Shown here: positions 8,465 through 11,934 of the stretch, one piece after another | How the letters are laid out: the number at the start of each line of letters is the position of its first letter | Numbering within the stretch: the stretch's first letter is position 1 | Made by a program: the position numbers and the translations under genes | Notes under the pieces: generated by a model | The model's input: only the letters and a program-made list of their open reading frames with translations | Database searches by the model: none | What the model was told of the DNA's origin: nothing | DNA from: Actinomycetes bacterium | GTDB lineage: Bacteria; Actinomycetota; Actinomycetes; Jiangellales; Jiangellaceae | Assembly: GCA_021793295.1 (NCBI GenBank) | Contig: JAJYTA010000002.1 | Location: 12,859-76,858, forward strand | Reading direction: 5' to 3' | DNA length: 64,000 nucleotides

Positions 8465-9697
8465 ATGCGTGCATGGCCAGCCCCCGACCTGCCCGACCTC
8501 CCCGGCCGTGGTCTGCCGGTCCGGCTGCACGACACCTCGTCGGGCAGTACCCGGGTCGCGGCCGCCGGCCCCACAGCGTCGATGTACGTGTGCGGTATCA
8601 CGCCGTACGACGCAACCCACCTGGGTCACGCCGCCACCTACATCGCCTTCGACGTGCTCAATCGCGCCTGGCACGATGCCGGGTTCGCGGTCGCCTACGT
8701 CCAGAACGTCACCGACGTCGACGACCCGCTGCTCGAGCGCGCCATCGAGACCGGGCAGAACTGGCGCGATCTCGCCGACCAGCAGACGCAGCTGTTCACC
8801 GACGACATGGCGTGGCTGCGGGTGATACCGCCGCAGCACTTCGTCGGCGCCGTCGAGTCCATCCCGGTGATCATCGAGCTGATTCAGCGATTGCAAGCCG
8901 CCGGGGCGATCTACGACGTCGACGGCGACCTCTACTTCTCGGTTCGTTCCGACCCGAAGTTCGGCCAGGTGGCCGGGCTCGATCCCGCCACCATGCGGGA
9001 CCTGTTCGCCGAGCGCGGCGGCGACCCGCACCGACCCGGCAAGAAGGACGAGCTCGACTGCCTGGTCTGGCAGCGTGCGCGGCCGGGGGAGCCGTCCTGG
9101 GACAGCCCGTTCGGCCCGGGGCGTCCAGGCTGGCACGTGGAGTGTACGGCGATCGCATTGCAGCACCTCGGCATGCCGTTCGACGTGCAAGGCGGCGGCA
9201 ACGACCTTGCTTTCCCGCATCACGAGATGTCCGCGGCCCACGGACAGGTCGGGGAGGAGCGCTGGCCGTTCGCGCACGTCTACGCGCACGCCGGCATGGT
9301 CGGCCTGAACGGCGAGAAGATGTCCAAGTCGCTCGGCAACCTGGTGTTCGCCTCGGAGCTGCGCCGCAACGGGCACCACCCGGCGGCTGTGCGGCTGGCG
9401 TTGCTCAGCGGGCACTACCGAGCCGACCGCGAGTGGACCGACGACCTCCTGGAGCAGGCGTCCGCCCGGCTCGACCGCTGGCGTGAGGTGGCACGGTCGT
9501 CAGCGGCGCCGGATGCCGTGCAGCTGCTGTCCGACGTGCGCGGCCACATCGCCGACGACCTCGACACGCCGGGCGCCATCGCCACCATCGACCGGTGGGT
9601 GGACAGCGCCGCCGGCGCCGGCCAGCCGATGGATCCGTCAGCTCCGGCACTCTTCAGCGACCTCGTCGACGCCCTCCTCGGCCTTTCCCTTGAATGA
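8465..9697 (+). CDS. mshC: Cysteine:glucosaminylinositol ligase MshC
   Basis: MshC joins cysteine to GlcN-inositol with ATP, the third enzymatic step of mycothiol synthesis, in the cytoplasm. The protein (410 residues, the usual size) is a cysteinyl-tRNA-synthetase paralogue. It has the zinc/cysteine-binding Cys in [15 protein letters not shown] (HIGH-like motif at 52-55), the zinc ligands in [10 protein letters not shown] and FPHHE, and KMSKSLGN at 285-292. It lacks the anticodon-binding domain of CysRS, as expected for MshC. The last codon (Glu) and stop are the first bases of the left 80-bp inverted repeat, so the downstream unit supplies the end of the gene without disturbing the family length. 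Confidence 0.95.
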
Positions 9698-9771
9698 TCA
9701 TGTTCACTTGGCAATTCCCTGCTCCACCACCCATACACGCCTGGTGATGCGTCACAACGCCTCGTGATGCC
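9692..9771 (+). repeat. Left 80-bp terminal inverted repeat
   Basis: It begins with a near-palindrome (GAATGATCATGTTC, 9692-9705) containing the perfect ATGATCAT. It ends with two 14-bp direct repeats (ACGCCTGGTGATGC at 9737-9750 and ACGCCTCGTGATGC at 9757-9770) at 20-bp spacing. Only three positions differ from the reverse complement of the right repeat. The mshC stop codon (9695-9697) lies inside it. Confidence 0.92.
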
Positions 9772-9786
9772 CAGCGGCTGGCCGCC

Positions 9787-9824
9787 TCGTCCACAGGCAT
9801 GCCCCAAGCCGCAAGTTGTCCACA
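9787..9824 (+). promoter_or_regulatory. Two DnaA-box-like 9-mers upstream of the element gene
   Basis: TCGTCCACA (9787-9795) and TTGTCCACA (9816-9824), 29 bp apart on the same strand, both fit the actinobacterial DnaA-box consensus (TTGTCCACA being the preferred form). They lie in the 107-bp space between the left repeat and the gene. A third TTGTCCACA in the window overlaps the start of an FKBP gene, so single matches are not telling; the close pair is. Confidence 0.35.
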
Positions 9825-9878
9825 GATCGGCGAGCGCCCCTCGCGCCATGCGACCGCACTCGGCCACCGTCGGCTGCC

Positions 9879-10838
9879 ATGGACGAAATGCTGCAGACCC
9901 TGGCTGCGACTCAGGGCCATGTCATCTTGCGACCCCAAGCGCTCGACGCCGGATATCTCGATCACGAAATCGCTCGGCTGCGTGAACGTGGCGAATGGAT
10001 CACCGTCCGTCGCGGCGCCTACATGCAACGATGCGTGTGGGACACCCTCGACGACGTCGGCCGGCACCGTGCCCGCGCCCACGCCGTCCTCCGTCAGCTC
10101 GATGAGCCGGCCGTCGCCAGTCACGTGACCGCCGCCGTCCTCAGCGGGCTGGACGTGTGGGACGTCGACCTCACGACGGTGCACGTGACGCGGGCCGACC
10201 TGCATGCGCCGCGGCGCGAAGCCGGCGTGCACCACCACGTCGGGCCGCTGCCGGACTCAGAGGTCACCGAATACGCCGGCGGCATCGTCGCCACGTCAGA
10301 CGCGCGCACCGTCATCGATGTCGCCCGTACGGTGCCGTTCGAGTCCGGCGTCGTCACGGCCGACTCAGCGCTCGCGCGGCCACACGTGAAACCCGAGGCC
10401 CTGCTCGAGATGTTGGACGAGATGCGGACGTGGCAAGGCGCCCGCACGGCCGGGCGTGTCGTGGCCTTTGCCGACGGACGCGCGGAGAGCGTCGGTGAGT
10501 CCCGGCACCGGGTGCAGTTGTGGCGAATCGGGCTCCCGGCGCCGCAGCTGCAGGTCGTCGTCCAGGGGCTGGACGGCAGCGAGGACCGGGTCGACTTCTA
10601 CTTCGACGATTTCGCCACGGTCGGGGAGTTCGACGGACGGGAGAAATACGGGCGGCTGCTTCGCCCCGGCGAAAGCGCAGGCGATGCGATCTGGCGCGAG
10701 AAACGGCGAGAGGATCGGTTGCGCGAGCGCGGGATGCAGGTCGTGCGGCCGGTCTGGGCGGACCTGTATCGCGACGACGTCGTGGCGCAGCGCTATCGCC
10801 GGGCGTTCGCGTTGGCGCGGCGACGGCGCTACGTCTGA
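9879..10838 (+). CDS. AbiEi-like wHTH plus DUF559/Vsr-like nuclease-fold protein
   Basis: A 319-residue protein. The first 60 residues match the AbiEi antitoxin-type winged helix: a Gly-rich turn, a helix ending HEIARLRERGEW, then the wing VRRGAYM. The middle resembles the AbiEi C-terminal core. The last 110 residues resemble the DUF559/Vsr-like PD-(D/E)XK fold: RVDFYFDD, then VGEFDGREKYG, with Asp, Glu and Lys in plausible catalytic positions, then an RRED-Leu-Arg helix. No AbiEii toxin partner is adjacent. The ATG at 9879 starts the wHTH; an in-frame TTG at 9816 is less likely. No obvious promoter was found. It is the only gene between the 80-bp inverted repeats. A DNA-binding nuclease acting on the repeats is inference only. 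Confidence 0.75.
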   Translation: MDEMLQTLAATQGHVILRPQALDAGYLDHEIARLRERGEWITVRRGAYMQRCVWDTLDDVGRHRARAHAVLRQLDEPAVASHVTAAVLSGLDVWDVDLTTVHVTRADLHAPRREAGVHHHVGPLPDSEVTEYAGGIVATSDARTVIDVARTVPFESGVVTADSALARPHVKPEALLEMLDEMRTWQGARTAGRVVAFADGRAESVGESRHRVQLWRIGLPAPQLQVVVQGLDGSEDRVDFYFDDFATVGEFDGREKYGRLLRPGESAGDAIWREKRREDRLRERGMQVVRPVWADLYRDDVVAQRYRRAFALARRRRYV

Positions 10839-10847
10839 GCGGTCATC

Positions 10848-10927
10848 GGCACCACGAGGCGTTGTGGCGCATCACCAGGCGTGTATGGGTGGTGGGGCAG
10901 GGAATTGCCAAGTGAACATGATCATTC
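10848..10927 (-). repeat. Right 80-bp terminal inverted repeat
   Basis: Reverse complement of 9692-9771 with three substitutions. It starts 9 bp after the stop of the enclosed gene and ends 13 bp before the stop of the PAC2 gene. ATGATCAT is at 10918-10925. Confidence 0.92.
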
Positions 10928-10940
10928 GACAACAGTGGGG

Positions 10941-11780
10941 TCAGCGGTCGCGGCGGCGTAGGTAGCGCTCGAACTCGCGGGCGATGTGCTCGCCGGAGGC
11001 TTCAGGCAGGTCGACGGTGTCGCGGGCCTCTTCGAGACGGCGTACGTACTCGGCAACGTCGGCGTCTTCCTCGGCCAGTTCGTCGACGCCGTGTTGCCAC
11101 GCTTCTGCCTGCTCGACCAGGTCGTCGAGGCTGATCGACAGCTGTAGGTAGTCCTCGACATGCTGGAGCAGCACCAACGTGGCCTTCGGGCAGGGCGACT
11201 GCGCGACGTAGTGGGGTACTGCCGCCCACAGGGACAGCGCGTCGTAGCCGCCGGCGGTGGCGGCGTCCTGGAAGACGCCGACGATACCCGTGGGGCCTTC
11301 GTAGTTCGACGGCTCCAGGCCCAGACGGGCGGCCTTTTCGGGGTCGCTGGAGGCCGATGTGACCGGGACCGGACGGGTATGCGGGACATCGGCGAGTAGA
11401 GCGCCCAGCGTCACGATCTGTCGCACACCCAGCTCGCCGGCTGCGGCGAGCAGTTCGGCACAGAACGAGCGCCAGCGCAGATTCGGCTCGATGCCGCGCA
11501 AGAGAACGAGATCACGCCCGGCGTCGGCTTCGCGGACGACCGACAGCCGCGTAGTGGGCCACTCGATCTCGCGTGCCCCGGAGTCATCCAGACTCACCAA
11601 CGGCCGGTTGACCTGGAAGTCGTAGTACTCGTCCGGGTCGAGGCCGCCGATCGGGGTGGCGTTCCACTGCTGCTCGAGGTACTCGACGCCGGCCGTGGCC
11701 GACTCGCCTGCGTCGTTCCAACCCTCGAAAGCCGCGATGAGTACGGGATCGCGCAGCCGTGGCGCGCTGTCGAGCTCCAT
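10941..11780 (-). CDS. PAC2 family protein (proteasome assembly chaperone-like)
   Basis: A 279-residue member of the actinobacterial PAC2 family (related to M. tuberculosis Rv2125). It shows the typical N-terminus PVLIAAFEGWNDAGE, the segment IVTLGALLADVPHTRPVPVT, and GPTGIVGVFQDAA, and ends in a helical Glu/Arg-rich tail. The PAC2 fold is shared with eukaryotic proteasome assembly chaperones, but the bacterial role is not settled. The gene converges on mshC, the order seen in related genomes, with the inverted-repeat unit between them. ATG at 11780 with an AGGGAG site upstream; a GTG one codon earlier is also possible. A minus-strand TAGGGT at 11842-11847 is a candidate -10. Confidence 0.88.
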   Translation of the reverse strand: MELDSAPRLRDPVLIAAFEGWNDAGESATAGVEYLEQQWNATPIGGLDPDEYYDFQVNRPLVSLDDSGAREIEWPTTRLSVVREADAGRDLVLLRGIEPNLRWRSFCAELLAAAGELGVRQIVTLGALLADVPHTRPVPVTSASSDPEKAARLGLEPSNYEGPTGIVGVFQDAATAGGYDALSLWAAVPHYVAQSPCPKATLVLLQHVEDYLQLSISLDDLVEQAEAWQHGVDELAEEDADVAEYVRRLEEARDTVDLPEASGEHIAREFERYLRRRDR

Positions 11781-11934
11781 CACACTCGTCTCCCTGGGTG
11801 GCGATCATCCGCGTCCGTCGGACCCCGTCGTCCTGGGGCCCACCCTACGGCCATCGGCGGGCGAGGGCGCGGTCAGCGGGTCGCGATTGGACGGACGCGG
11901 AGATCACCATCAGGTCACGAGCGCGGGAGCTGCC

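Follow-up and report, generated by a model that had tools for sequence, protein, structure and literature searches.

A predicted AbiEi-Vsr-like nuclease gene between inverted copies of its own dispersed repeat: a probable REPtron-like system in actinobacteria

The closest described systems are those of RAYT genes and REP sequences, in which one gene lies between two inverted cognate repeats, further repeat copies are dispersed, repeat abundance tracks the gene, and gene and repeats diverge together (PMC2817692). In REPtrons (a RAYT with its REP/REPIN repeats; PMC2817692, PMC3116915) the enzyme is a HUH/Y1 transposase and the repeats are short stem-loops with a GTAG tag, while in TIRtrons (PMC3733652) the Y1 tyrosine transposase, or TIRYT, is flanked by long inverted repeats that belong to genomic families of moderate abundance. 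The proteins AbiEi and Rv2827c, the latter from Mycobacterium tuberculosis, attach to inverted repeats within their own promoters (PMC7319586). Here we describe a unit from the actinobacterial family Jiangellaceae in which a gene of another kind is enclosed by inverted repeats; the repeats are dispersed through the genome and evolve in concert within it, the presence of the gene is associated with repeat abundance, and the unit has changed its location. A search of openly licensed literature turned up work on RAYTs and TIRYTs but no account of this nuclease-repeat family; an earlier account elsewhere is possible.

The unit lies in a 64,000-nucleotide stretch of DNA (the window), where it is located between two convergent host genes, mshC at its left edge (8465..9697, + strand; TIGR03447, E 8e-184) and a PAC2-family gene at its right edge (10941..11783, - strand; PF09754, E 1e-66). 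An inverted-repeat search places the left repeat at 9692..9771 (+ strand; outer end GAATGATCATG at 9692-9702) and the right repeat, an inverted copy of it, at 10848..10927 (- strand). The arms are 80 nt each, 96% complementary (77/80) and 1076 nt apart; as a measure of chance, 2 matches, both of them one 43-bp match, came from testing the window at 294 other placements. Between the arms there is a single ORF (9879..10838, + strand), with its ATG at 9879 and a stop that ends at 10838, which encodes a nuclease-like protein of 319 aa. The left repeat supplies the stop codon of mshC (TGA at 9695-9697, in GAA TGA at 9692-9697), and 13 bp separate the right repeat from the end of the PAC2 gene. The left arm, as read from sequence, also contains a direct repeat (9738..9770, + strand) made up of CGCCTGGTGATGC (9738-9750) and CGCCTCGTGATGC (9758-9770), of which the second copy is a tail that in other lineages copies the 3' arm of the stem. 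Rfam and PHROGs gave no match.

Pfam AbiEi_4, at the N-terminus, is the sole Pfam match in the window's protein, and this part of it is also hit by PADLOC AbiEi models (E 2e-15); among homologs, matches to DUF559 and REase_MTES_1575 occur as well. The AlphaFold2 model (pLDDT 94) is matched by Foldseek to AbiEi (6y8q, E 2e-5) and Rv2827c (1zel, E 7e-5), and its C-terminal fold, weakly, to I-Bth0305I and Vsr (E 0.05-0.15). Five residues, E207, D239, E250, D252 and K256, do not vary among 43 homologs. We model the protein as an AbiEi-type DNA-binding fold at the N-terminus joined to a C-terminal Vsr/I-Bth0305I-like nuclease domain. An earlier, sequence-only reading of this DNA had proposed 80-bp inverted repeats alike at 77 of 80 positions around one gene, inserted between convergent genes, and a product combining an AbiEi-like wHTH with a DUF559/Vsr-like nuclease in place of a transposase; the repeats and their coordinates are confirmed, as are both neighbours by their profile matches, and Pfam, homolog domains, model and Foldseek agree with the proposed protein. 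By Pfam there is no known transposase inside the unit. An AbiE operon was rejected for want of a toxin gene, given that no AbiEii (DUF1814) gene adjoins the nuclease gene, whose neighbours are mshC and PAC2. A RAYT acting in trans was rejected as well, since Y1 (RAYT-type) transposases are absent from 21/21 genomes searched, with control genomes giving matches.

The arm belongs to a dispersed repeat family. When the genome that contains the window was searched for the 80-bp repeat, a check that the sequence-only reading had suggested, at least 42 scored matches came up, 84-100% identical and with sharp ends; the outer 11-mer AATGATCAYGT occurs there 54 times per strand (108 in total), while the reversed pattern has 0 occurrences. 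Repeat ends in Jiangellaceae are of the RAATGATCAYG type. Copies occur singly, as inverted pairs, as tandem arrays and as compact palindromes of 44-95 bp with common ends; other inward pairs in the window's genome surround ordinary host DNA, and no transposase was recognised by eye in five further pairs that were inspected. With gene calls from a simple codon-usage finder, the 3' end of the 5' neighbour faces the repeat in 30 of the 36 intergenic copies for which that neighbour is resolved (binomial p=7e-5). The distance from gene end to repeat is usually within about 25 bp, and in about ten copies the TGA of the repeat is the neighbour's stop codon, as at mshC. The window's own repeat folds no better than shuffles, and clear stems are confined to other lineages (median z -2.7 for 75 arms, by an approximate shuffle and RNA-style folding code). 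Two 44-bp near-perfect palindromes in G001 (AATGATCACGTTCCGCATGGAATTCCATGCGGAACGTGATCATT; C10:103278, L237, and C2:423007, L238) comprise the repeat's outer part only, and G046 holds a head-to-tail array of overlapping repeat copies (C1:3435991-3436189, L255).

Within the family, one ortholog is present in 15/22 genomes and none in 7/22. Each lineage has its own diverged version of the repeat around the ortholog, in inverted orientation, with the left repeat only in G001. Motif counts are higher where the ortholog is present (one-sided p=0.005), amounting to 28-277 in 13/15 ortholog-bearing genomes and to 1-6 in the ortholog-less ones, except G011 (27) and G012 (31), where the copies without a detected ortholog may reflect recent gene loss or an assembly gap. 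The two exceptions among ortholog bearers are G005, in which the motif reads ATGACCACGT and the genome's own repeat has many dispersed matches, and G015, whose nuclease gene has an internal stop. Relative to the window, the gene is inverted between its repeats in G007 (L066) and G013 (L067), with the arrangement of mshC and PAC2 unchanged. A different compact palindrome, CATGATCATCAACCTTTTG...CAAAA-GTTGATGATCATGG, is found in gene-less Jiangella genomes (in the mshC-PAC2 intergenic region of G021, L025, and near 4581000 in G015) and may be another repeat family with its own enzyme.

Repeats of one genome evolve together. The two arms of one genome are 85% alike on average, compared with 68% for arms of different genomes; in the window's genome the arms are 96% alike, whereas the best arm from the same side and locus elsewhere reaches 71-74% (eight genomes compared). 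G013 and G020 have repeats at one shared site, in the same position and orientation, and each repeat is of its own genome's type. Distances between proteins and between repeats are correlated (Mantel r=0.62, 0/5000 permutations), a figure that includes phylogeny, and shared phylogeny may explain part of it. Concerted evolution of this kind is compatible with homing-like copying by repair.

Four different loci hold the unit within this one family. Genera g1 and g3 have it at mshC-PAC2; in g6 and g2 it adjoins a VOC-like gene and, where this was read, one like an ABC permease; in G015 it lies between MFS-like and methyltransferase-like genes, and in G005 between gpm-like and phoU-like genes. The neighbours at the last three loci are named from sequence rather than from a profile scan. 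Neighbours are convergent in G006, G002, G015 and G005, as in the window. The G015 unit measures about 1.1 kb, and its matched flanks lie about 47, 48 and 12 bp apart in G016, G018 and G009, respectively; both host stop codons in G015 are within the unit's ends, and some intergenic DNA has been lost. Small copies have empty sites too: a full palindrome in G013 leaves 120 bp unaligned where G018 has 16 bp, and for a single copy the figures are 113 bp and, in G020, 19 bp. No target duplication was seen at the G015 unit or at the small copies, in comparisons with species that differ by 9-19%; because these species share about 81-91% DNA identity, the exact junctions are uncertain. Some of the genomes are drafts. 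Where mshC-PAC2 lacks the unit, the interval is nearly empty in G005, with about 27 bp from gene to gene, and in G030, with about 68 bp, which answers the sequence-only reading's call for strains with an empty site, and it contains an acetyltransferase-like ORF, about 430 bp, in G018 (L023), G017 (L024), G021 (L025) and G015 (L068).

The four loci and the G015 empty-site comparison support the proposal in that reading that this is a mobile unit whose type has no name, or one moved in trans. It had also held that repeats found only here, with gene and repeats fixed at one locus across distant genera, would argue against mobility. Part of this does apply, the unit being at the mshC-PAC2 locus in both g1 and g3. 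Given this shared locus, the unit moves rarely and its inheritance is mostly vertical; the small repeats are what multiplies.

The association between gene and repeats extends across Actinomycetota. Inverted repeats, usually palindromic, flank 79/124 homologs, as against 3/488 pairs in a null in which flanks of different genes were paired, and 45/124 have no flanking repeat at the threshold used. Homologs in other actinobacterial families share about 36-50% identity, and their flanking repeats are of quite different sequence and often alike in design, with a palindrome or a motif like GATCACGT on the outside, a stem-loop, and a tail that copies the stem's 3' arm. The gene's own flanking repeat is dispersed in 10/10 genomes examined from genera other than the window's, with 16-76 matches, some of which are one copy read on both strands. 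The named genera are Jiangella, Phytoactinopolyspora, Kribbella, Nocardioides, Marmoricola, Pseudonocardia, Geodermatophilus, Blastococcus, Nocardia, Prescottella, Tomitella and Skermania. Three genomes (G081, G095 and G070) have two homologs each, every one with its own distinct flanking repeat. The flanking-repeat label is somewhat clustered on the protein tree; the idea that it marks one protein clade was rejected, as the label occurs across the whole tree with 29 changes. Since 7 plasmid records and 1 phage record match partially at 30-37% identity, a typical plasmid or phage gene was rejected too.

The unit likely serves as master locus for a REP-like (REPtron-like) repeat system, in which a nuclease unrelated to RAYTs would recognise its own repeats and spread or homogenise them. 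An unlikely alternative is that the repeats are MITEs moved by a classical (for example DDE) transposase elsewhere in the genome and that the nuclease gene is a passenger between two copies. The compact 44-95 bp palindromes with shared ends do resemble MITEs, and other inward pairs in the window's genome surround ordinary host DNA, yet a passenger would not explain why members of one gene family have flanking repeats across many genera although those repeats differ in sequence; the five further inward pairs in which no transposase was recognised by eye and the 21 genomes without a Y1 transposase also count against it.

A further alternative is that the repeats are autoregulation sites of an AbiEi-like protein, or its regulon, the second domain being incidental: the promoters of AbiEi and Rv2827c contain inverted repeats that these proteins bind (PMC7319586), and one repeat lies upstream of the gene here. 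We regard this as very improbable, considering that the other repeat is downstream, that 30/36 dispersed copies with a resolved 5' neighbour are behind gene ends and not in promoters, and that insertion is evident from the empty sites. We give just as little credence to transcription terminators or mRNA-end structures under selection, with the gene between two of them by chance: the window's own repeat folds no better than shuffles, repeat copy number follows the gene and the gene takes its repeats along to new loci, although the repeats do abut stop codons in one orientation and form stems in many lineages. Least probable of all is an anti-phage or AbiE-type toxin-antitoxin component with unrelated repeats. 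PADLOC AbiEi models (E 2e-15) and Pfam AbiEi_4 match its N-terminal part, but an AbiEii partner is absent next to mshC and PAC2, the C-terminal part is nuclease-like, and the repeat association is far above the null (79/124 vs 3/488).

For the REPtron-like master locus, we infer an enzymatic role of the protein on the repeats. The wHTH would recognise the conserved outer repeat ends (TGATCA-type motif), the Vsr-like domain would nick or cut at these ends, and strand transfer or repair would copy repeats to new sites and convert old copies. The data are compatible both with transposition and with homing-like gene conversion. More tentatively, and with some doubt, we suggest that predicted AbiEi-Vsr nucleases could represent an enzyme class new to mobile DNA, with no relation to the DDE, HUH, tyrosine and serine recombinases. 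Such an enzyme would cut its own palindromic repeats and spread them, often to positions behind stop codons, and would sustain populations of repeats across the actinobacteria. If true, this would mean a REPIN-like system of the actinobacteria's own, driven by a kind of enzyme that is not known to move DNA; the large family whose members now carry the annotation orphan AbiEi antitoxin or DUF559 protein would gain a role, and dispersed repeats in Jiangella, Nocardioides, Kribbella, Pseudonocardia and Nocardia would be explained.

By analogy, the system appears to work like a REPtron without being one, because the RAYT/REP features are present, the enzyme is not a RAYT and Y1 transposases are lacking in 21/21 genomes. 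As in REPtrons (PMC2817692, PMC3116915), a chromosomal gene lies between inverted cognate palindromic repeats, copies are dispersed, repeat abundance follows the gene (p=0.005; exceptions G011 and G012), and gene and repeats diverge together (Mantel r=0.62, phylogeny included); unlike in REPtrons, the enzyme is AbiEi-Vsr-like and not a HUH/Y1 transposase, and the repeats are about 80 bp long without a GTAG tag, rather than short GTAG stem-loops. TIRtrons (PMC3733652) share the long inverted repeats around the gene and the moderately abundant families, but TIRYTs are Y1 tyrosine transposases, which the enzyme here is not. The predicted N-terminal fold is that of AbiEi antitoxin and Rv2827c (6y8q, 1zel), a fold that binds inverted repeats (PMC7319586), whereas the present protein has a nuclease-like domain, no AbiEii partner and repeats genome-wide. 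Its predicted C-terminal fold resembles Vsr and the homing endonuclease I-Bth0305I (1vsr, 3r3p) in a weak structural match, but the gene sits outside an intron or mismatch-repair setting and is flanked by its own repeat family. Insertion-sequence MITEs are likewise small and palindromic, are scattered over the genome, and have conserved ends and empty sites. Here the repeats are linked to one nuclease gene family; no transposase was recognised inside the unit and no Y1 transposase in 21 genomes, and no target duplication was seen against species that differ by 9-19%. The claim of novelty rests on the type of enzyme.
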